DNA of 64,000 bases from Sinomonas sp. P10A9. Lineage in GTDB: Bacteria; Actinomycetota; Actinomycetes; Actinomycetales; Micrococcaceae. The notes beneath the pieces are model-generated. The model saw only the letters and a program-made list of their open reading frames with translations. It was not told where the DNA came from and made no database searches. A program made the position numbers and the translations under genes. This document shows positions 39,265 to 64,000 of the stretch, piece after piece (the first letter of the stretch is position 1; every line of letters starts with the position of its first letter). The stretch lies in the NCBI RefSeq assembly GCF_041022165.1, contig NZ_CP163302.1, positions 248,001 to 312,000 on the forward strand, in the 5' to 3' direction.

Positions 39265-40341
39265 CTAGAGGAAGCGGTCCAGAAGGCTCGTCTCCGCCAT
39301 CCGGGAGAGCCCTTCGCGCACGGTCCTGGCACGCTGTTCGCCGATGCCGTCCACGGTCATGAGGTCGTCGATGGTGGCGGCCATCAGGTTCTGGAGCCCG
39401 TTGAAGTGGTCTACGAGCCGGTCCGCAACGGCACGCGGCACGGGCTTGAGGCCGGAGATGAGGCGGTACCCGCGGGGGTGCACGACGGCGTCGAGCGTCT
39501 CGATCCCGCCCGCGTAGCCGAGGATCGCGGCGATGCGGTTGAGATCCAGGAGGTCCACGCTCGTGAGCTCCATGAGCCCCTCGACGGCGGCATCGATGGT
39601 CTCGTTGGAGACGTCGGCGCCCGCGTAGTCGCGGATGACGACGTCCGAGCCCGGCCCCAGGCCGGTGATCAGCTCCTCGAGCTGGAGGGCGAGGAGGCGG
39701 CCGTCGTCGCCGAGCTCGAGCACGTAGTGGGCGATTTCCTCGGAGATGCGGCGCACCATTTCCTGCCGCTGGAGCGTCTGCGCGACGTCTCGGACCGTGA
39801 CCATGGCCTCGATCTCGAGGGCGGACAGCGAATGGGTGACCTGGTCGAGTCTGGCGCGGTAGCGTTCGAGTGTCGCGAGGGCCTGGTTGGCGCGCGCGAG
39901 CACCCGCTCGGAGCCCTCGATGACGTGTCGGATGCCCTGCACGTAGAGCGCGATGATCTGCATGGACTGGCTCACCGAGACGACCGGGAGGCCGGTCTGC
40001 TTCGCGACCCGCTCCGCGGTGCGGTGACGCGTCCCGGACTCGAACGTCTCGATCGACGAGTCAGGGACGAGGTGCACGGCGGCCTTGACGATCGTGCGGG
40101 CGTCCCTGTCGCATACGATGGCGCCATCCATCTTCGCGAGCTCGCGAAGGCGGGTGGGGGAGAACTCGATCCCGATCTCGAAGCCGCCCGAGCAGATCGA
40201 CTCAACGGTCGGGTTGTAGCCCAGGACGATGAGGGCACCGGTGCGGCCGCGCAGGATGCGTTCGAGGCCGTCGCGAAGCGCGGTTCCGGGTGCGACCCGA
40301 GCCAAGGTGGCATTGAGCGCTTCCTCGGGGGTCGGAACCAT
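39265..40341 (-). CDS. disA: DNA-integrity scanning diadenylate cyclase
   Basis: DisA makes c-di-AMP from two ATP and senses branched DNA. The DAC domain motifs DGA (residues 72-74) and RHR (105-107) are intact; a long helical spine and a C-terminal helix-hairpin-helix DNA-binding domain (LMTVDGIGEQRARTVREGL) follow. Length is 358 residues. The start is at ATG 40341 (MVPTPEEAL), with an AAAGGGA upstream. Its neighbour radA encodes a protein that controls DisA activity in Bacillus; the same may hold here. Confidence 0.96.
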   Translation of the reverse strand: MVPTPEEALNATLARVAPGTALRDGLERILRGRTGALIVLGYNPTVESICSGGFEIGIEFSPTRLRELAKMDGAIVCDRDARTIVKAAVHLVPDSSIETFESGTRHRTAERVAKQTGLPVVSVSQSMQIIALYVQGIRHVIEGSERVLARANQALATLERYRARLDQVTHSLSALEIEAMVTVRDVAQTLQRQEMVRRISEEIAHYVLELGDDGRLLALQLEELITGLGPGSDVVIRDYAGADVSNETIDAAVEGLMELTSVDLLDLNRIAAILGYAGGIETLDAVVHPRGYRLISGLKPVPRAVADRLVDHFNGLQNLMAATIDDLMTVDGIGEQRARTVREGLSRMAETSLLDRFL

Positions 40342-51464: not shown

Positions 51465-53126
51465 ATGGCAGGACGCAGGGTTGCGAGCCGGGCCGAATCG
51501 AAGAGCAGCTGGCGCGCGCGTCGCCGGCGGAGCCGATTCGCCATCGTCGTGTCTATCGCGGTGGGCGTGCTCGTCCTTATTGGCCTCGCGGCGTGGGCGC
51601 TGGTTCCGAGGATCGTGACGGCCGCCGCGCCGTCGTGCGCGTCAACCGAGACGTACAGCGTGCTCGCCGACTCGACCACGCTCCCGGCAGTGAACGCCGC
51701 TGCGGCGCGTGTGGACCCCGCCGCGTGCGTGACGCTCAAGATCGATGTCGCGGAGCAGACCGACATCGCCGCCAAGGTTGCGGCCGGCAAGGCTGCGCCG
51801 GACCTCTGGCTGGCCGATTCGAGCGCACGGGTGAGCGCTGTCAACTCCACCCCGAAGCCAGAGATCGCGGTGCCCTCGGTGGCGGCCTCGCCGGCGGTTG
51901 TCGTCGCGGCGAAGGGCACTGCTGCACCGTCCGGGTGGGGCGCCGCGTTCGGCACCGCCAGCATCCAGTTCGGCGATCCGCTCACGAGCGCGAGTGCCTC
52001 GGCCGCGCTCGCCGGCGCCGTTGCCGAGGGCGAGTCCGGTGGCTCGAACCCTGCCGCGCTTGCGGCGTCGCTCGGCAAGCTCGCCCAAGGCTCGGCCCAG
52101 AAATCCCATGCAACCCAGAGCGACTCTGCGCTCCTCGATACGGCCGAGCGCTCGTCGGATTCGGTCATCGTCGCGGAGAGCTCGTGGCTCGCGTACGCCT
52201 CCTCCCACCAGAACACCAAGCTCGCGGCGACCGTCCCCGGCGGCAAGGCTGCCGTCGTCGACTATCCGATCGCCGTCACGAGCACCGATTCCGCGCGTCG
52301 CCCGGGTGCGGCGAAGGCAGCCAAGGCGCTCGCTGCAGCCCTCGGCGACGATCAGGGCCGCCGTGCGCTCGCCGACGCCGGCCTGCGCGCTCCGGGCGCG
52401 GGCCAGACCGACGGCGCGGCCGCCCAGCTTTCCGTGGGAGCCGTGACCGTGCTTGCCCCCTCCGCGGACGGGATCAGCCGCGCGCTCAAGACCTGGGCGC
52501 TGCAGGTCGTCCCGTTCCGCTCGCTCGTCGTCATGGACGTCTCCGGGTCCATGAACCTCGACGCGGGCGGCAAGACCCGCATGCAGCTCACCCAGCAGGC
52601 TGCTGCGACGGGCGCGGGCATGTTCCCGGACACGGCCCAGCTGGGCATGTGGGCGTTCTCGATCAACCTGGGCGGCCAAGGCCAGGACTACAAGGAGCTC
52701 GACCCGATCCGGCGCATGGACGCCATCACGGACGGCAAGTCGCAGCGCCAGCGTCTCGGGGCCGACATCCAGTCGCTCGGGAGCCTCGTGGGCGGGGGAA
52801 CGGGTCTCTACGACACCGCGCTGGCAGCCTTCCGCACCGTCAAAGCGGGCTACGACCCGCGGGCCGTGAACTCGGTCATCCTGTTCACGGACGGCGCGAA
52901 CGAGAAGCCCAACTCGATCTCGCTCGATGAGCTCCTCGCGACGCTCAACCGGGAGAAGGACCCGGCCAAGCCCGTCATCTTCGTGACGATTGGCATCACG
53001 GCCGACGCAGACGCGGCCGTGCTCCAGCAGATCGCTGCCGCGACCGGAGGCTCAAGCTACGTGGCGAAGGACCCGGCGGACATCCCGAAGGTGTTCACCG
53101 AGGCCCTCGTCGCCAGGACTCAATAG
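51465..53126 (+). CDS. Membrane-anchored substrate-binding/VWA hybrid protein
   Basis: The 553-residue protein has a basic N-terminus and one membrane helix (about 27-50). A domain like a periplasmic solute-binding protein (about 65-320) follows, and then a von Willebrand A domain (about 350-545). The MIDAS motif is DVSGS (358-362), with later TDG. Such proteins are commonly annotated as VWA or substrate-binding domain proteins and sit on the outer face of the membrane. The combination hints at metal-dependent adhesion or sensing. GGGAGGAGAG precedes the ATG. It is convergent with dodecin. Confidence 0.8.
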   Translation: MAGRRVASRAESKSSWRARRRRSRFAIVVSIAVGVLVLIGLAAWALVPRIVTAAAPSCASTETYSVLADSTTLPAVNAAAARVDPAACVTLKIDVAEQTDIAAKVAAGKAAPDLWLADSSARVSAVNSTPKPEIAVPSVAASPAVVVAAKGTAAPSGWGAAFGTASIQFGDPLTSASASAALAGAVAEGESGGSNPAALAASLGKLAQGSAQKSHATQSDSALLDTAERSSDSVIVAESSWLAYASSHQNTKLAATVPGGKAAVVDYPIAVTSTDSARRPGAAKAAKALAAALGDDQGRRALADAGLRAPGAGQTDGAAAQLSVGAVTVLAPSADGISRALKTWALQVVPFRSLVVMDVSGSMNLDAGGKTRMQLTQQAAATGAGMFPDTAQLGMWAFSINLGGQGQDYKELDPIRRMDAITDGKSQRQRLGADIQSLGSLVGGGTGLYDTALAAFRTVKAGYDPRAVNSVILFTDGANEKPNSISLDELLATLNREKDPAKPVIFVTIGITADADAAVLQQIAAATGGSSYVAKDPADIPKVFTEALVARTQ

Positions 53127-55204: not shown

Positions 55205-55388
55205 TGTCCCCTGCAAGGTGCCGTTCGTTAGCTGAGGCTCCTTCGCGGACACAAGCCAGCGACCCCCAACGTCGAGAGACGCCACGGGTCAGGACAGGTC
55301 GCCCCGGATTAAGGGGCCTCCCCGATTGGCTCCCGGACCAAGAGTCCAGGGTGACGCCGCGAAGTGCCAAAGGTCTTACGAGGAGGGG
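55205..55388 (+). promoter_or_regulatory. M-box (ykoK leader) Mg2+ riboswitch
   Basis: The conserved landmarks of the M-box are found in order: CGTTAGCTGAGGCTCCT (55225-55241), GACACAAGCC, then CGTCGAGAGACGCC with GGGTCA, and at the 3' end GAAGTGCCAAAGGTC leading to TACGAGGAGG. A CCCCT/AGGGG pair (55208-55212 with 55384-55388) can close the P1 helix. M-boxes bind Mg2+ and lower expression of Mg2+ transport genes when Mg2+ is plentiful. This one lies ahead of an 11-codon ORF and a two-gene ABC transporter. A covariance-model search would settle the boundaries. Confidence 0.85.
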
Positions 55389-55406
55389 CGTCAGGTCGCT
55401 TGGCGG

Positions 55407-55440
55407 CCTCCCGAGGCATGCAGCCATCAAACCGGGGAGG
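55407..55440 (+). promoter_or_regulatory. Putative anti-Shine-Dalgarno switch downstream of the M-box
   Basis: CCTCCC (55407-55412) is complementary to GGGAGG (55435-55440), the Shine-Dalgarno of the 11-codon ORF, and also to GGAGG at the 3' end of the M-box (55382-55386). Mutually exclusive pairings of this kind are the usual translational expression platform of riboswitches. Confidence 0.45.
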
Positions 55441-55449
55441 TGTTCCGTC

Positions 55450-55485
55450 ATGAGCGACGGTCATAGTCCCGCCGGTTCCTTCTGA
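55450..55485 (+). CDS. 11-codon upstream ORF in the M-box leader
   Basis: ATG 55450 begins an 11-residue frame (MSDGHSPAGSF) ending at TGA 55483-55485, with GGGGAGG ten bases upstream, the best Shine-Dalgarno in the region. A small hairpin CCGTC/GACGG (55445-55460) has the ATG in its loop, and GCCGGT/ACCGGC (55471-55476 with 55485-55490) spans the stop codon. Its position between riboswitch and permease suggests a leader peptide. The sequence is too short to know whether the peptide itself matters. Confidence 0.5.
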   Translation: MSDGHSPAGSF

Positions 55486-55490
55486 CCGGC

Positions 55491-55646
55491 ACGAGCCCGC
55501 CCTCTTCTAGAGCCCGCCCGCCCGCCCTTTTCCGCAGCCCCGCCACACCAGCGTGACTCGCCGCGCCGCGCCCGCAACCACGCGGCGTCGGACGCCGAGC
55601 CCCGCTCCTCTGTAGTGCGGTTGCGCCCGCCCTGACGGGAGCCACC
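55491..55646 (+). other. Leader segment between the upstream ORF and the permease
   Basis: The 156-base, C-rich spacer contains a GGCGTC-GGA-CGCC hairpin near 55585 and no further gene. GGGAG 8 bases before ATG 55647 is the permease's Shine-Dalgarno. Confidence 0.4.
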
Positions 55647-57383
55647 ATGACCCTCCTCCGCCTGCTGCCCGGCGCCGGCACGCTCCAGCGTGCCCGGTTC
55701 CGCTGGGCCGACCTCCTTGTGGCGGCGACCATCGCCGTCGTCTTCTATCTCGTGATCCGCGTCTCACTCGGGGCGACGGCCCCGCTCGACCTGGGCAATG
55801 CGCCGTCCTCCGTCTCGACCGAACCCTCCAACCTTCCCTACTACGCGCTGCGCTCGCTGGCCCGCATGTTCGCGGCGCTCCTCGCATCCGTCGTGTTCAC
55901 CTTCGTGGTCGCGACGGCGGCCGCGCGCCTCCCGCGGGCCGAGAAGATCATCCTGCCCGCCCTCGATATCCTCCAGTCAGTGCCGATCCTCGGCTTCCTG
56001 TCCGTGACGGTCACTGGATTCTTATCCCTCTTCCCGGGCTCCCAGCTTGGGCTCGAGGCCGCGAGCGTCTTCGCGATCTTTACGTCCCAGGCCTGGAACA
56101 TGGCCTTCGCCTTCCATGCGTCCCTCGTGAGCCAGCCCAAGGAACTCGACGAGGCCGCGCGCCTCATGCGCCTCACCAAGTGGCAGCGCTTCTGGCGGCT
56201 CGACGTGCCCTCCGGCATGATCCCGCTCGTCTGGAACGGGATGATGAGCTTTGGAGGCGGCTGGTTCTTCCTCGCCGCGTCCGAGGCGATCTCGGTCAAC
56301 GGATCCTCCTACGCCCTCCCCGGGGTGGGCGCCTACGTGGCCGCGGCGGTCGAGGAGGGAGAGCTCGCGAACGTGGGCTGGGCCATCCTCACGATGGCCG
56401 TCATGGTGCTCGGCGTGAACTTCCTCTTCTGGCGCCCGCTCGTGGCATGGGCGGAGAAGTTCCGCCAGGAGGACACGGCCGCCGCGGAGCGTCCGCGCAG
56501 CCTCGTCCTCTCGGTGCTCGCGCACTCGTCGATCCCGCGGGGACTGGGCCGGGCGCTCGCGCCCATCGGCAGGACGCTCGACTCCGCGATGCGGCCGTTC
56601 GGCGTAGCCGACTACCCGCTCGTGGTGCCCGCCGCGCGGCGTCGTGCGGGAGACGTCGCGGTCACGGTCCTCGTCGCGGCAGCGATGGCGTATGGCGCCT
56701 ACTGGGCCTACGACTTCATCGCCTCGACAGTGGGCTTCGGCGAGTTCGGACAGGCGTTCGGGCTCGGGCTCATCACCCTCCTGCGGGTGCTCGCGATCAT
56801 CGTCCTCGGGACGATCGTGTGGGTTCCTGTGGGCGTGTGGATCGGTATGAACCCCAGAATCAGCCGGCTCGCGCAACCCGTGGTCCAGATGCTCGCGAGC
56901 TTCCCGGCGAACTTCCTGTTCCCGTTCGCGATCGCATTCTTCGTGGCCGCGGACATCCCGCTCGATATCGGTGGGATCGCGCTCATGGCCCTCGGCTCGC
57001 AGTGGTACATCCTGTTCAACGTCATCGCGGGAGCGAGCGCGATCCCTACGGATCTTCGGCAAGCGATGGACAGCTTCGGTGTCACACACGTCCAGCGCTG
57101 GCGCCGACTCATCCTCCCCGCGATCTTCCCCGCCTTCGTCACGGGTGGCGTCACCGCGGCCGGCGGTGCGTGGAACGCCTCGATCGTCTCCGAGGTCGTC
57201 TCCTACAACCATGACACCCTCACGGCCACCGGGCTCGGTGCCTACATCGCCCAGGCGACCTCGTCGGGCGACATGGCCCGCGTGCTCATCGGCGTGATCG
57301 TGATGTCCGCCTTCGTGGTGGGCATCAATCGACTGTTCTGGCGACGCCTGTACGCACTTGCCGAGTCCCGCTTCTCGCTCTGA
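55647..57383 (+). CDS. ABC transporter double permease (NitT/TauT-like fusion)
   Basis: The 578-residue protein has two binding-protein-dependent permease domains in one chain. The first (about residues 20-270) has an EAA-type loop in KELDEAARLMRLTKWQRFWRLDVPSGMIPL; the second (about 335-575) in TDLRQAMDSFGVTHVQRWRRLILPAIFPAF. Twelve or so helices are predicted. There is no attached or neighbouring substrate-binding protein. It belongs to the nitrate/sulfonate/bicarbonate superfamily by similarity, but the M-box upstream suggests a role linked to Mg2+. ATG 55647 has GGGAG upstream and the ATPase follows after 37 bases. Confidence 0.88.
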   Translation: MTLLRLLPGAGTLQRARFRWADLLVAATIAVVFYLVIRVSLGATAPLDLGNAPSSVSTEPSNLPYYALRSLARMFAALLASVVFTFVVATAAARLPRAEKIILPALDILQSVPILGFLSVTVTGFLSLFPGSQLGLEAASVFAIFTSQAWNMAFAFHASLVSQPKELDEAARLMRLTKWQRFWRLDVPSGMIPLVWNGMMSFGGGWFFLAASEAISVNGSSYALPGVGAYVAAAVEEGELANVGWAILTMAVMVLGVNFLFWRPLVAWAEKFRQEDTAAAERPRSLVLSVLAHSSIPRGLGRALAPIGRTLDSAMRPFGVADYPLVVPAARRRAGDVAVTVLVAAAMAYGAYWAYDFIASTVGFGEFGQAFGLGLITLLRVLAIIVLGTIVWVPVGVWIGMNPRISRLAQPVVQMLASFPANFLFPFAIAFFVAADIPLDIGGIALMALGSQWYILFNVIAGASAIPTDLRQAMDSFGVTHVQRWRRLILPAIFPAFVTGGVTAAGGAWNASIVSEVVSYNHDTLTATGLGAYIAQATSSGDMARVLIGVIVMSAFVVGINRLFWRRLYALAESRFSL

Positions 57384-57420
57384 TTACTGACTTCTTCTTT
57401 CCCCTCGAGGAGGCACCACC

Positions 57421-58860
57421 ATGAACCTCTCAGCCAACAGCACCACCGCCGCCGGCACGACCAACAGCACCACGGACCTCATCTCGGTCTCCGACGTGAG
57501 CAAGCACTTTGCGACCGACGGCGGGGAGAAGACCGTCCTCTCAGGCGTCACCCTGACGCTGCGCGAGGGCGAGATCGTCGCGCTCCTGGGCCGCTCGGGC
57601 TCGGGCAAGAGCACACTGCTGCGGTGCATCGCCGGTCTCATCGCGCCGTCATCCGGAACCGTCTCGTACCGGGGCGAGCGCGTCAACGGCGCGAATCCCG
57701 GCACCGCCCTCGTGTTCGAGTCCTTCGCGCTCCTGCCCTGGCTCACCGTCCTCGAGAACGTTGAGCTCGGGCTCGAGGCGAAGGGCGTCAGGCCTGCCCA
57801 GCGCCGCGAGCGGGCCCTCGCCGCGATCGACGCGATCGGGCTCGACGGCTTCGAGACCGCCTATCCGAAGGAACTCTCGGGAGGAATGCGACAGCGCGTC
57901 GGGTTCGCGCGGGCGCTGGTCGTGGAACCCGACGTCCTGCTCATGGACGAGCCGTTCTCCGCCCTTGACGTGCTCACGAGCGAGAATCTCCGCTCCGAGC
58001 TCGTGCGGATGTGGAGCGACGGGACAATGCCCACGCGCACCGCGCTCATCGTCACCCATAATATCGAGGAAGCCATCCAGCTCGCGGACCGTGTGCTGGT
58101 GCTCGATTCCAACCCCGGCCGCATCAAGGCCGAGCTCGCGGTGGACCTTCCCCAGCCGCGCGACCGCCGCAGCCCCGAGTTCGAGGCACTCGTCGATGAG
58201 GTCTACGGGATTCTCACCGGCCAGAAGGCGGAGCCACGGCGCGGGCTGGCAGTCGCTTCGGGTGCCCAGGAGGTGAGTGCGCACGACGGCGGCGGCGAGC
58301 CGACGGCGGCGACTGTTCCGGGCGGCGTCATGCGCGGTGAGGCGGCCGACACCGGAAGTGGCAACCTCGAGATACCGCTTCCGGCGGCGAGCACGGGCGA
58401 GCTGCGCGGCCTCATCGAGCTTCTCGCCCACCGCGGCGGGGTCGAGGGTCTCGCGGAGATCGCTGACGAACTGCGCTACGAGATTGACGACCTGCTGCCG
58501 ATTGTCGACGCCTCCAACCTGCTCAAGCTTGCGCGGCCGCAGGGCGCCGAGCTCCGGATCACCGAACAGGGCCGGCGGTACGCCGCGGCCGATCTCCTCC
58601 GGGCCAAGGAGCAGTTCGCGACGCTCGCGGTTGAGACTGCGCCGCTTGTCCGGCGGATCGTCCGGGAGCTGCGGCACAGCGACTCCGGTGCCCTGCGCGC
58701 CGATGACATGCTCGCCGAGCTCAAGGCACTTTACGGCGACGATGAGGCCGAGGCGCAGCTCGATACCGCGATCGACTGGGGGCGGTACGGAGAGCTCTTC
58801 GAGTTCGACGCGGACTCCGACCGCCTCCTCCTGCCGACCCATCCCGACGCCACAGCGTGA
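57421..58860 (+). CDS. ABC transporter ATPase with C-terminal AAA-associated domain
   Basis: This 479-residue protein has an N-terminal NitT/TauT-like ATPase: Walker A GRSGSGKST (57-65), signature LSGGM (152-156) and Walker B MDE with Asp176/Glu177. The Q-loop glutamine is Glu100 (VFES instead of VFQS). After an Ala/Gly-rich linker (about 275-320) comes a ~150-residue C-terminal domain (about 325-475) of the AAA-associated type (IDDLLPIVDASNLLKLARPQGAELRITEQGRRYAAAD), thought to be regulatory. It pairs with the double permease. No substrate-binding protein is nearby. Confidence 0.88.
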   Translation: MNLSANSTTAAGTTNSTTDLISVSDVSKHFATDGGEKTVLSGVTLTLREGEIVALLGRSGSGKSTLLRCIAGLIAPSSGTVSYRGERVNGANPGTALVFESFALLPWLTVLENVELGLEAKGVRPAQRRERALAAIDAIGLDGFETAYPKELSGGMRQRVGFARALVVEPDVLLMDEPFSALDVLTSENLRSELVRMWSDGTMPTRTALIVTHNIEEAIQLADRVLVLDSNPGRIKAELAVDLPQPRDRRSPEFEALVDEVYGILTGQKAEPRRGLAVASGAQEVSAHDGGGEPTAATVPGGVMRGEAADTGSGNLEIPLPAASTGELRGLIELLAHRGGVEGLAEIADELRYEIDDLLPIVDASNLLKLARPQGAELRITEQGRRYAAADLLRAKEQFATLAVETAPLVRRIVRELRHSDSGALRADDMLAELKALYGDDEAEAQLDTAIDWGRYGELFEFDADSDRLLLPTHPDATA

Positions 58861-59321: not shown

Positions 59322-62300
59322 ATGAGATGGTCCGTGCTGTGGAAGGGGCTGAAGCGGCTCACTGCCGCGCTGGCCGCTTTTGCCATGGCACTCGCCGTCG
59401 CGACACCCGCCGGCGCATCGACCCTCGCAAGTCCGCAGGGTGGCCCCTGGGCCGTGAGCCCAGCGCAGGTGGCAAACCATCAAGACGCGGCGTCGCTGCC
59501 CGCAGCTCCCGTCACGACAGCTATCACGCTCGCGGACATCCAGGCCGTCTACGGCGCTGCCGCGGGCCTGTGGCCCGGGCACGACGTGAGCGCCGCGACC
59601 TTCGCGGTCGCCCCGCTCGGCGGGACGGCCCTCGCCGTCACGAACGGAACCGCCATCACGGTGAGCCCGACGGCGGCCGGCTGGGGCTGGAGCGTCGGAA
59701 CGGTCGCCACGAACCGGATGGACCTCCAGACGGTGATCGCCCACGAGCTCGGCCACGTGCTCGGCCTGGTCGACCTCGAGGGCGGTTCGGATCTCATGAG
59801 CCGGGTGCTCAACCCCGGAGAGCGGCGGACGGTGACGACCGAGGCCTTCCCGGCTCCGGCGGCTGCGCCGGCGCCCGCTCCGGCTACGACGACGACCTCG
59901 ACGCCGTCGACCACGACGACCGCTACGGCACCGGCATCGACCGCGACGACGTCCACGGCTCCAGCCGCGGCGGCGGCCGCTCCGGCTGCGACGACCTCGA
60001 CGCCGTTGACCACGACGACCGACCCGACCGCCACGGCTCCGGCCGCGACGACTGATCCGACGGCGACCACCGCGGCACCGACGACTACGGCGGCGCCGTC
60101 GACTGCGACGACGGCCCCGGCCGCGACGACGACCACGGCTCCGGCCGCGACCACGGCACCGACGGGCCCGTCGTCGACCTCGTCCACGACGTCGACCCCC
60201 ACCTCGGCCACCGCGGCGGCGACGACCACTTCGGTCTCGCCGGTATCGCCGTCCCCGTGGGCGCTGCAGATGACCTCGACGTCGTCGACGCTTGCGTTCC
60301 ACGCGGATGGAACGGTCACGTTCGAGGGCCAGGCCCGGCAGCTGTCGACGATCTCGGGCATCTCGGTCATGGGCACCGCCGGGAACGACACGCTCCTGGT
60401 GGACCGCGGCACCGTCAACCCGCACATCACGGTCAGCTTCGACGGCGGTCCGGGCTTCGACACCCTGGCCACGGCGGGCACGGTGACGAGCTCGCGCTCG
60501 GTGGCCGTGAACTCCTCGACCGGAACGCTCTACCTTGATGCGACGACGATCAACTACACGGACATCGAGCCGATCATCGCCGGCGGGACAGCGGCGGACG
60601 TGGTCTTCACCCTCAGCGGCGGCGACGACCAGGCCACCTTGACCCAGGCCGGATCGACCCTGACGCTCGCGAGCACCAACAGCACATTCGAGCTCACGAC
60701 GTTCACGGCGCCGACCGGGTCGCTGACCATCGACGGCGGGGCGGGCTGGGACTCGATCGTCCTGAGCGGCCCGATTTCGCTCGGCACGACGGCCCTGACG
60801 ATCCACGCCGAGAAAATCACGCTCGCCTCTGGGACCGTCCTGACCGCCGGAACCGTCCTCCTCGACGCGGCCGACACCATCACGGGCGGCCCGCACAACC
60901 CGCTGAGCGATCCGCGCAGCTGCGCGACCCTCGCGACGCACTGCGGAGACGTCGAGGTCACCCTCCAGGACAGCCAGGTCACCTCCGGCGGGTTCACCGC
61001 CCAGGCGGCCGCCAGCGTCAGCCCCGACGCCACCAGCGCTACTGCCTACGCGGTCAACGTCTCCTCGAAGGCCCTCGTCTCGCTCCTCGGCACGACCCAG
61101 ATCGCCGCGACAGGTGACGTGGTCCTCTCGGCGGCCTCGACCGTCGGCCCCGTGACCCTGGTCAAGAACTACGGCGACGCGGCCATCGTCTCCTCGGACG
61201 CCGAGGTCACGATCGGCGGCTCGGCCGTGGTCAAGACGAGCGGCAAGACCACGGTGGGCTCGACGTCGAAGGTCGACGTCGCCGCTACGCCGGGCTCCGC
61301 TGGGAAGAGCGAGGGCTCGGCCGACTCGAGCGGCGCCGCGGCCAAGGACGCCGCAGTCGCAATCATCACGGTGAGCACGACGGCGGTCAGCAAGGTCACG
61401 AACACAGCGCACCTCGAGGTCACCGGCGACCTCTCCCTCACAGCAACGAACCACGCGGGCCTGACCGGCACCGGCGACGCGAGCGCTGCGACGTCGGGCG
61501 CCGGCATCGCGGTCGTGAACCTCAACCAGACGACGCAGGCGATCATCGACTCGACGAGCACGGCGCCTACCAAGGCCGCGAACATCACCCTCACCTCGAA
61601 CGCGGACGGTGCCAACGCGGCGTCGGCCAAGGCGAGCCCCGGCGGCTCGACCGCGAACGACAAGCCCGTCAACGACTCCTCCAGGGCGAACGGCCAGGCC
61701 AACACCGCCGACGGCTCCATCGGCCTCGCGGGAGCTCTCGCCGTGAGCGTGTTCACGGCTCTCACGCAGGCGGTCGTCCAGGCGGCCCAGGTCGTGACCG
61801 GGGCACTCAAGCTCTTCACCACCTCGCAGGCCACCTCGAGCGCCACGGGCGATGGGAGCACGACGGCGAGCGGCGCGCTCGGCGTGGGTGTCGGCGTCGG
61901 CGTTGACGTCGCGAATGTGACGACAGAGGCATACATATCGGGCGCGACGATCCAGGCGACGTCCGTGACGATCGAGTCGGACGAGACCCGCACGGGCGGC
62001 TCGGGGTTCACCTCTAGCGCGACCTCGGGTGCCACGAACAACTCGGGCGGCGTCGGAGCGGCCGGCTCGTTCGCCCTCACGCTCGTCAATGGCAAGACGC
62101 TCGCCGAGATCCGCGGCACCGGCAACGCGCTCACCGGCACTCCGGCCGTGGCCCTCAAGGCCACAGGGAAGCACGTCAACTCTGCGACGGCCCAAGCGGC
62201 ACAGAACGGCGGCGCCACCGGCATCGGAGCCTCGATCGCCCTCGGCATCATCGACTCGATCGTCGCGGCGCGGCTGGTCAAGGATGCCGTGCTCAGCGGA

Positions 62301-64000
62301 GCCGGTGCCCTCAACCTCACAGCGACCGGAAGCGACGCGACCACTACAGGCGCGACAGGCGGCGCGGCGGGCGGATCGAACGCCTCGCTCATGGGCGTCG
62401 TGGCCATCACGATCTCCAACATCCAGACGATCGCCTCGCTCCTGACAGGCCCCGCGATCACCCTCGCCGGCGCGCTGACCGGGTCGGCGACCCAGGCGGC
62501 GTCGGCCATCACGACTGCGACCGGCAGCACGACCGCGGGTGCGGGCGCGACTCTGGCCGCAGGCATCAGCTTCGCGCTCACCGCGGCACAGCACAGTGTG
62601 GACTCCTCGATCGGCCGGGCCACGACCGCTGGCGGGGACGTCGCGATGAGCGCCGACGGCACCTCGGCGACGTCCACGACGTCGACGGCCTCCGCGGCCG
62701 GCGCTCAGGGCGGCACAACGAGCAGCCCGACGAGCACCGACTCCTCCGGAAAGAGCGCGAACCAGAAGGCCGACTCGCAGCTCGCGTTCGCCGGCGGCAA
62801 GTCTGCCGGCGGCACCTCCTCCTCGACGACTCCCGCGGCAACCGACTCGAGCGGCAACAGCATCACCGTCGCCGCGGCGATCGCCTTCAACCTCGTGACC
62901 TCCTCCTCGACCTCCGAGCTCGCCCCGGCCACGACCCTCTCGACCCCCGGCAAGGTGAGCTTCGCGTCCGCCAACACCACGACCGCCCAGGCCACGGCCG
63001 ACGGCTCGGCCTCCGGCGGCACAGGGCCGACGATCGGCGCGGCGATCGCGATCAACAAGGCCACGATCGTCAATGAGGCATCCACGGGCGCCGGCGCATC
63101 CGTCACGGCCACCGGCCTCACCCTCACTGCTGTGAACCATGCCGATGCCTCGGCGCCGAGCACGCCGCTCGCCCACAGCACGGGCGCCACGGCGAAGTCA
63201 GGCGCGAGCGGAGCGGGAAGCAACGTGGGCGTCGCGGGCTCGTTCGCCCTGAACATCGCCAACCTGTCCACCACCGCCGCCATACACGCGGCGACTGCGA
63301 CGCCGACCGATCCCCTCGGCGGAATCAGCCTCGGAGGTGCGGGCAACGCGGCGGCGACCGCCGGCTCCTCGTCCGCGAACGGCGCGTCTGCGACGGCCTC
63401 CCAGTCCACGGGCGGCAGCGGCGGAACCTTCGGCATGGGCGCATCCATCGGCCTGAACCTCGTTACGGACCAGGTTTTCGCGGGCGTCGACCGGCTCTCG
63501 CTCGGCACCCGCGGACCCCCACTGGCCGGAGTCAAGGACTTCACCATCCAGGCGACCAACAGCGATACGCTGACGACTGCGATCGAAGGTGGAGCAGGAG
63601 GAGCGAACATCTCGCTCGCCCCCGCCATAGCGATCTCACTCGCGAACGTATCGACCACCGCCGGAATCGGCGGAGCGGACCCCAGCCTCGGCACGACTGC
63701 CCTCGCCGGCACCGTCTCTGCCACCGCCGACCAGACCACCACGGTCACCACCACCGCCAAGGGCGCCGCGACCGCCGCGTCAGGCGGGACCCTCGCGCTG
63801 GGCATCGCGCTCGCCCTCGCCGTCGTCGATTCCTCGTCCTCGGCCCCGCTCGACCGCACGCTCTCCGCAGCGTCCGCGGCGTTCACGGCCCACCACACGG
63901 AGGCGACCACCACGACCGGCACGGCAAGCGCGGCCGGCGCCCAGGGCGAGAGCTCCGACACGTCGGGCAAGGACGTCAACGGCAAGGCGGACGCGGCCCT
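59322..64000 (+). CDS. Giant secreted protein: metzincin-like domain plus beta-strand repeats, 3' end outside window
   Basis: An unbroken frame runs from ATG 59322 to the last base (1,559 codons, no stop). A Sec signal peptide ends near residue 32 (hydrophobic LTAALAAFAMALAVATP, then AGA). HELGHVLGLVD gives an HExxHxxGxxD zinc site (His141, Glu142, His145, Asp151) with a Met-turn candidate at Met159 in DLMSRVL. A Thr/Pro/Ala-rich linker (about 180-305) leads to beta-helix-like repeats, with Gly/Ala/Thr/Ser-rich units such as GAGIAVVNLNQTT, GVGVGVDVANVTT and GAAIAINKATI. It resembles large adhesins or S-layer-associated proteins. The reverse strand has a 1,330-codon shadow frame. Confidence 0.82.
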   Translation, partial: MRWSVLWKGLKRLTAALAAFAMALAVATPAGASTLASPQGGPWAVSPAQVANHQDAASLPAAPVTTAITLADIQAVYGAAAGLWPGHDVSAATFAVAPLGGTALAVTNGTAITVSPTAAGWGWSVGTVATNRMDLQTVIAHELGHVLGLVDLEGGSDLMSRVLNPGERRTVTTEAFPAPAAAPAPAPATTTTSTPSTTTTATAPASTATTSTAPAAAAAAPAATTSTPLTTTTDPTATAPAATTDPTATTAAPTTTAAPSTATTAPAATTTTAPAATTAPTGPSSTSSTTSTPTSATAAATTTSVSPVSPSPWALQMTSTSSTLAFHADGTVTFEGQARQLSTISGISVMGTAGNDTLLVDRGTVNPHITVSFDGGPGFDTLATAGTVTSSRSVAVNSSTGTLYLDATTINYTDIEPIIAGGTAADVVFTLSGGDDQATLTQAGSTLTLASTNSTFELTTFTAPTGSLTIDGGAGWDSIVLSGPISLGTTALTIHAEKITLASGTVLTAGTVLLDAADTITGGPHNPLSDPRSCATLATHCGDVEVTLQDSQVTSGGFTAQAAASVSPDATSATAYAVNVSSKALVSLLGTTQIAATGDVVLSAASTVGPVTLVKNYGDAAIVSSDAEVTIGGSAVVKTSGKTTVGSTSKVDVAATPGSAGKSEGSADSSGAAAKDAAVAIITVSTTAVSKVTNTAHLEVTGDLSLTATNHAGLTGTGDASAATSGAGIAVVNLNQTTQAIIDSTSTAPTKAANITLTSNADGANAASAKASPGGSTANDKPVNDSSRANGQANTADGSIGLAGALAVSVFTALTQAVVQAAQVVTGALKLFTTSQATSSATGDGSTTASGALGVGVGVGVDVANVTTEAYISGATIQATSVTIESDETRTGGSGFTSSATSGATNNSGGVGAAGSFALTLVNGKTLAEIRGTGNALTGTPAVALKATGKHVNSATAQAAQNGGATGIGASIALGIIDSIVAARLVKDAVLSGAGALNLTATGSDATTTGATGGAAGGSNASLMGVVAITISNIQTIASLLTGPAITLAGALTGSATQAASAITTATGSTTAGAGATLAAGISFALTAAQHSVDSSIGRATTAGGDVAMSADGTSATSTTSTASAAGAQGGTTSSPTSTDSSGKSANQKADSQLAFAGGKSAGGTSSSTTPAATDSSGNSITVAAAIAFNLVTSSSTSELAPATTLSTPGKVSFASANTTTAQATADGSASGGTGPTIGAAIAINKATIVNEASTGAGASVTATGLTLTAVNHADASAPSTPLAHSTGATAKSGASGAGSNVGVAGSFALNIANLSTTAAIHAATATPTDPLGGISLGGAGNAAATAGSSSANGASATASQSTGGSGGTFGMGASIGLNLVTDQVFAGVDRLSLGTRGPPLAGVKDFTIQATNSDTLTTAIEGGAGGANISLAPAIAISLANVSTTAGIGGADPSLGTTALAGTVSATADQTTTVTTTAKGAATAASGGTLALGIALALAVVDSSSSAPLDRTLSAASAAFTAHHTEATTTTGTASAAGAQGESSDTSGKDVNGKADAA

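Follow-up and report, generated by a model that had tools for sequence, protein, structure and literature searches.

The 64,000-nucleotide (nt) stretch of the Sinomonas sp. P10A9 genome analyzed here (the window) contains an M-box Mg2+ riboswitch aptamer upstream of a gene pair for an ATP-binding cassette (ABC) transporter, with a short leader open reading frame (ORF) between them. The pair encodes a fused double permease and an ATPase that carries PF09821 at its C-terminus. Together these elements probably form a Mg2+-repressed transport operon, and the transporter is most likely a Mg2+ importer that operates without a binding protein. Control of the operon by Mg2+ appears well supported by sequence comparison, because the arrangement of M-box and gene pair is conserved; by analogy with other M-boxes, the control would be a repression by Mg2+. 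Mg2+ as the substrate is suggested by the regulation, the gene linkage, and the precedent of the importer NrmT. The locus is composed of the following elements:

55217..55392, plus strand: M-box (ykoK) Mg2+ riboswitch aptamer, full-length match to RF00380 (model positions 1-169), 116.4 bits, E-value 2.5e-25
55379..55388, plus strand: 3′ strand of the aptamer helix P1, CGAGGAGGGG, from the Rfam alignment; predicted folds pair it either with the 5′ P1 strand or, alternatively, with CCTCCC further downstream
55407..55412, plus strand: CCTCCC, candidate anti-Shine-Dalgarno segment of the leader ORF, from folding prediction and the enrichment of CCTCC across high-GC leaders
55434..55442, plus strand: strong ribosome-binding site of the leader ORF, GGGGAGGTG, from the sequence and the comparison across M-box leaders
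55450..55485, plus strand: short leader ORF, MSDGHSPAGSF, of a kind present in most M-box leaders examined
55487..55646, plus strand: C-rich stretch from the leader ORF to the permease gene (78 C and 45 G of 160), by composition only a possible Rho entry region
55647..57383, plus strand: fused double permease, 578 amino acids, two BPD_transp_1 (PF00528) stretches by Pfam
57421..58860, plus strand: ABC ATPase, 479 amino acids, ABC_tran (PF00005) and C-terminal PF09821 AAA_assoc_C (112.8 bits) by Pfam

The M-box had been called from ordered landmark motifs in an earlier sequence-only reading of this DNA. All of the motifs listed there lie inside 55217-55392, and the covariance model check that it proposed was strongly significant, with a score far above the RF00380 gathering score of 44 bits; the E-value refers to a search of the whole window against all Rfam families. 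The M-box and the permease start are 254 nt apart on the same strand, and within this distance the comparison of leaders supports only the 11-codon leader ORF. The gap between the permease and the ATPase genes is 37 nt. The Sinomonas sp. P10A9 genome contains one more M-box, which is located upstream of an Nramp relative, and the ORF following that gene shows similarity to part of MgtE in tblastn.

The pairing of an M-box with the permease/ATPase genes is conserved across two phyla. For the survey, 80 relatives of the permease were gathered by protein sequence alone. M-boxes were sought by whole-genome RF00380 searches with stricter filters for 49 of the first 50 loci (48 genomes; L049 was left out) and by cmscan of the loci for the remaining 30, L049, and five re-checks. 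A same-strand M-box preceded the permease, or an mgtC gene leading into the permease, in 14 of the 80 relatives, some of which have short upstream sequences (e.g., L046). The 14 loci belong to five Nocardia, three Tsukamurella, two Bifidobacterium, two Gardnerella, and two Negativicutes (Lucifera and Pelosinus; Bacillota). In a sample of 200 genomes from the class of Lucifera, the permease was found in 19, and an M-box was situated before it in 14 of these, at a distance of 141–204 nt; the Lucifera and Pelosinus loci are counted both here and among the 14 of 80. The 19 genomes contained 24 M-boxes in total, and in 8 of the 14 genomes the M-box of the pair was the sole one found. In the class of the window, 12 of 394 genomes encoded the permease, and beyond the window an M-box preceded it in 3 of 11 cases, with almost no upstream sequence for L171; the samples overlap partly, as L060 and L175 are the same permease. 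An M-box was also present upstream of the pair in G038, which belongs to another family of the same order and has a 54% identical permease. Within the genus of the window, the permease occurred in 3 of 14 genomes, and an M-box directly upstream of it only in Sinomonas sp. P10A9.

The transporter family is a strong candidate for Mg2+ import, because the pairing recurs in two phyla, often beside genes for Mg2+ uptake. In the five Nocardia and three Tsukamurella M-box loci, mgtC is the gene between the M-box and the permease. In the loci that were read, it ends at the permease start or overlaps it, and the mgtC of L042 contains PF02308 and PF21770. With tblastn, mgtC was found in the flanks of 19 of the 80 loci, in 13 of them as the same-strand gene directly upstream, and seven loci had an nrmT-like gene in their flanks, with the match in L106 being partial and at the edge of the locus; Pfam confirmed Nramp for L038 and for loci of the window's genus. 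For the 28 genomes G058–G085, mgtC was near the pair in 14, compared with 0.06 expected within 5 kb from the mgtC density. An all-against-all comparison of ORFs revealed a P-type ATPase of the MgtA type adjoining 7 of 85 loci; of these seven proteins, the six that were scanned all scored above the Mg2+ equivalog cut-off of TIGR01524. G007 carries the nearest ortholog (82%); downstream of its pair come an Nramp gene, a LytR-type gene, and then an M-box with nrmT. The recurrence of mgtC, mgtA, and nrmT-like genes beside the pair goes beyond what the sequence-only reading had at hand, and its view of a Mg2+-responsive, possibly Mg2+-transporting ABC system is supported by these comparisons.

A tree of 97 permeases was used to follow the distribution of the markers. 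Not included in it were 14 of the 80 named relatives, mostly from Proteobacteria and including L087, as well as L148 and L152 (same genomes as L096 and L099), L158 (near L157), and L177 (incomplete sequence). The M-box state changed at least 10 times on the tree, with four short loci not counted. An M-box was recorded in 30 rows, mgtC in 22, mgtA in 7, nrmT in 8, and arsR in 15. At least one of M-box, mgtC, mgtA, and nrmT accompanied 51 of the 97 permeases, and 36 of the 63 from Actinomycetota; the four acidobacterial rows, the two from Eremiobacterota, and the single cyanobacterial row had none of the markers. Flanks of 5 kb were available for the named loci and of 1.5 kb for most others, so that absences are soft.

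The leader ORF was analyzed with 74 leaders from M-box loci, three of them taken by position, of which 71 are distinct; this set omits 14 of the 44 M-boxes found by the whole-genome searches among the relatives' genomes. When the start was chosen solely by Shine-Dalgarno (SD) quality and spacing, 62 of the 71 distinct leaders had a strong SD motif with a start codon 25–185 nt past the aptamer. The controls yielded 4 of 72 for the reverse strand, 3 of 72 for the downstream region, and 0.5 of 74 for mononucleotide shuffles. The ORF occurs upstream of nrmT, mgtE, mgtC, and the ABC pair. At residues 2–9, D, G, S, P, or N accounted for 341 of 488 positions, and AGT encoded Ser in 82 of 144 cases, versus 22 of 103 later in the ORF. 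For 15 leaders of the window's genus, in which the next ORF starts like nrmT as judged by eye, pairwise comparisons, which are not independent of one another, revealed 196 synonymous versus 172 nonsynonymous differences at codons 2–9 and 31 versus 324 at codons 10–13. Because of this pattern, the first residues of the leader look constrained as protein, while the remainder looks free. By reading, the leader ORF was absent from seven leaders (L005, L009, L022, L123, L137, L144, and L155), two of which, L137 and L155, precede ABC pairs. L005, L009, and L022 are from the window's genus; in these, the M-box is followed by a weaker SD motif and a long hydrophobic ORF starting with MLF, perhaps a different class of target. 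In enteric bacteria, Mg2+ is sensed by leader peptides containing Pro and acidic residues, and a peptide from the leader ORF described here might be a second Mg2+ sensor.

Folding predictions suggest how the aptamer could act on this ORF. When the aptamer pairs were enforced, CCTCCC (55407-55412) covered the SD motif of the leader ORF, and GGAGG was at most 12% unpaired. When the 5′ P1 strand was blocked, the 3′ P1 strand paired with CCTCCC instead. Between the aptamer and the leader SD motif, CCTCC was present in 20 of 45 high-GC leaders, versus 5.9 expected from dinucleotide shuffles, and CTCC in 33 of 45, versus 15.2 expected; in these counts, the starts were picked by a score favoring D, G, S, N, and P, and the seven leaders lacking the ORF were removed by hand. 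C exceeded G past the leader stop codon in 41 of 51 high-GC leaders, and between the aptamer and the leader start in 8 of 51. This excess, which is a matter of composition only, fits a Rho entry region.

From the predicted folds and the enrichment of the anti-SD segment, we infer the following switch for the window, and the full chain from Mg2+ via P1 and leader translation to Rho is offered as a proposal. At high cellular Mg2+, the aptamer would close and P1 would form, so that CCTCCC would be available to mask the leader ORF's ribosome-binding site. At low Mg2+, P1 would open, its 3′ strand would capture CCTCCC, and the leader ORF would be translated. This translation would allow transcription to proceed into the permease gene, perhaps because it would keep Rho from acting on the C-rich stretch. 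The permease and the ATPase would then form the ABC transporter, which most likely would import Mg2+, free or as a small complex, with no separate binding protein. In the Negativicutes, control by the M-box is probably exerted by a terminator, because a hairpin followed by T residues, recognized by eye, lies between the aptamer and the leader ORF.

The assignment of the pair to the nitrate/taurine-like class in the sequence-only reading was right: both PF00528 and PF00005 are present, by sequence the nearest solved relatives of the pair are NrtBCD and CmpBCD, ABC importers of nitrate and bicarbonate, and the combination of a BPD_transp_1 permease with an ABC ATPase of this class is that of NitT/TauT-type systems. 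Likewise, no binding-protein gene adjoins the pair in the window or lies within its operon, as had been noted before. The sole domain resembling a binding protein among the scanned neighbors is SBP_bac_11 at 51465-53126 (plus strand), where it is combined with a VWA domain in one protein; this protein is outside the ABC operon, and two genes separate it from the M-box. The annotated recurrent neighbor clusters of the 85 loci contained no binding proteins; the smaller clusters lie outside this annotation, and a distant binding protein is possible.

The structure model of the permease had a mean predicted local distance difference test score (pLDDT) of 80.9, and its second half was modeled with the fold of CmpB, NrtB, OpuA, and MetI. 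According to a profile alignment, the Arg that CmpB/NrtB have in their LRTVP motif is not kept in the second half of the window's permease family. D107, E137, E169, E213, and E516 were invariant in 64 permeases, with E137 being only nearly invariant in the 97-row set; L087 was left out of the permease alignments. These acidic residues were considered as Mg2+ ligands, and this idea was dropped: the Asp and Gln of the D107 motif are shared by OpuA, and E169 is located in what we take to be the EAA loop, and hence no claim about the substrate was drawn from any of the residues. The stretch left out, L087:5001-6710 from Streptacidiphilus sp. 4-A2, has two stop codons in the frame read, perhaps due to a sequencing error or a decayed gene. 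For the PF09821 domain of the ATPase, the predicted order of helices and strands is compatible with two winged helices, which agrees with the winged-helix prediction in the excerpts of PMC3688454. Among the 50 Foldseek matches shown for the ATPase, all were matches of the ATPase domain by length and description, and no match to the C-terminal PF09821 domain was seen.

Several results weigh against the proposed role in Mg2+ import or against details of the switch. The survey of M-boxes before orthologous pairs bore out the pairing in the loci described above. The two other orthologs from the same genus and G041 (same order, 64% identical permease) had no M-box in 1.5 kb upstream. A cmscan re-check of two more Gardnerella and two more Bifidobacterium loci (L077, L078, L065, and L082) yielded no M-box, and cmscan of the Bifidobacterium bombi locus L085 yielded none either. 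In the class of Lucifera, 5 of the 19 pairs were not preceded by an M-box; four of these genomes have none anywhere, and the only one of G300 is elsewhere. No M-box was found before the pair in relatives from Proteobacteria, Acidobacteria, and Eremiobacterota, and the nine proteobacterial rows of the tree contained mgtC twice. Around the pair of G001 (81%), no mgtC, mgtA, nrmT-like gene, or other Mg marker was seen. CorA is encoded in 21 of 24 pair-bearing genomes (absent from G001, G007, and G133), so that the ABC transporter is rarely the sole candidate importer. An ArsR/SmtB gene was present in 15 of the 97 loci and never together with an M-box, an exclusion that follows lineages, and it could point to another metal. 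Lastly, the predicted release of the SD motif with P1 blocked was partial (2–48% unpaired), and the SD motif then paired with other leader segments.

Two ideas on the distribution of importers were set aside. A role of the pair as a general replacement of CorA was ruled out by the presence of CorA noted above. MgtE was not found above the cut-off in any of the 24 pair-bearing genomes, which gave three weak sub-threshold matches; this turned out to be uninformative as evidence for a complementary distribution, as MgtE was also absent from 38 of 40 genomes of Lucifera's class that lack the pair.

Mg2+ import is the simplest reading of the regulation and the neighbors. The pair could, however, be regulated by Mg2+ and import something else that is needed under Mg2+ scarcity, such as a Mg2+-binding organic anion, a phosphate-sparing compound, or a compatible solute. 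This would be in line with the nearest solved relatives, which carry nitrate or bicarbonate, and with the fold, which also matches OpuA for glycine betaine; moreover, MgtC, the commonest neighbor of the pair, is itself not a transporter in the best-studied cases. Nevertheless, the M-box targets identified in the subset that was classified include nrmT-like and mgtE genes, some of the pairs have mgtA or nrmT next to them, and the LRTVP Arg of CmpB/NrtB appears not to be retained in the aligned family, so that we regard another substrate of this kind as rather unlikely.

The recurrence of an ArsR/SmtB metalloregulator in 13 of 85 loci in the all-against-all comparison (family confirmed for three) may indicate either an alternative Mg2+ regulator or a different metal, and we know of no Mg2+-sensing ArsR protein. 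Examples of such genes are L033:7927-8352, L036:4437-4826, and L039:1048-1398. If the pair handled a different divalent metal, the M-box or ArsR would sense that metal or a general divalent stress. However, mgtC is tied to Mg2+ starvation, the six scanned P-type ATPases beside the pair exceed the Mg2+ equivalog cut-off, and the M-box family is described as an established Mg2+ sensor in excerpts of PMC4072509, which makes a different metal quite improbable. The position of the M-box in the window could also be fortuitous or the product of a recent local event, with no functional meaning; this would fit the two M-box-less orthologs of the same genus. Such an origin is extremely improbable in view of the same arrangement in distant genera and in another phylum, and the window's leader keeps both the leader ORF and the anti-SD segment.

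Taken together, a Mg2+ importer under M-box control remains our preferred reading. More tentatively, and with less confidence than for the locus itself, the ABC family could be a fifth class of bacterial Mg2+ importers, driven by ATP, independent of a binding protein, and serving Actinomycetota and Negativicutes either alongside mgtA, mgtC, and nrmT or in their place. The M-box would then act on a conserved short leader peptide that might itself sense Mg2+, in which case the operon would read Mg2+ twice, by RNA folding and by translation. If true, an ABC importer would bring an energy source and a protein family new to Mg2+ import and would provide a substrate for a widespread ABC family for which no assigned substrate was found. 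The conserved leader ORF would change the understanding of M-box control in high-GC bacteria.

Further arrangements of M-boxes were observed in the searched genomes. Same-strand pairs about 130 nt apart occurred in Lucifera's class (G156:C3:515610-516089, G168:C1:4541392-4541872, and G182:C23:1515-1993), two M-boxes about 200 nt apart faced away from each other at G058:C15:21906-22468, and Streptomyces orinoci (G061) has clusters of several M-boxes (C9:35439-35612 and 39376-39549; C2:259936-277003). Downstream of the operon, a very long protein rich in Ala and Thr is encoded from 59322 to 64000 (plus strand) and past the window end; it has a hydrophobic start and contains the motif HELGHVLGL, and its Matrixin PF00413 score of 22.7 bits is slightly below the cut-off of 24.

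Among known systems, the cyanobacterial transporters CmpBCD for bicarbonate and NrtBCD for nitrate rank among the best matches, by sequence and by fold, of the permease second half and the ATPase domain, but they have separate single permeases and other C-terminal parts. They depend on binding proteins, and to our knowledge, they have no M-box. In the mgtL/mgtA leader of enteric bacteria, a short translated ORF with Pro and acidic residues near its start lies ahead of a Mg2+ transport gene. Leaders of the window type appear similar in holding a short ORF with Pro and acidic residues near its start, whereas the enteric leader is not known to have an M-box, and its peptide and codon pattern differ from those of the window-type ORF.

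In the literature searched for a connection of the M-box or magnesium riboswitch with an ABC transporter, only the review PMC9111926 was found, where "ABC transporter" appears solely in the title of a reference, and the excerpts of PMC3766115 and PMC4109619 name no ABC target of the M-box. The "possible novel ABC system" of Candidatus Liberibacter asiaticus, which is Nrt/Ssu/Tau-like, has the same architecture of a two-domain permease and a PF09821 ATPase with no binding protein; in the excerpts of PMC3688454 it is given no specific substrate, and neither the M-box nor Mg2+ is mentioned. The bacterial Mg2+ importers named in the excerpts of PMC4072509 are CorA, MgtE, MgtA/B, and NrmT, with no ABC transporter among them. 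NrmT of Clostridium acetobutylicum belongs to an unrelated family and is a single carrier instead of an ATP-driven ABC pair, and its function was demonstrated by rescue of a Mg2+-deficient strain, whereas the pair described here is known from sequence (PMC4072509 for NrmT, in excerpts). According to the same source, an M-box before an Nramp relative led to this Mg2+ importer. The two cases share a riboswitch that stands before a transporter from a family without known links to Mg2+ and that hints at the substrate, and the second M-box of Sinomonas sp. P10A9 also precedes an Nramp relative.

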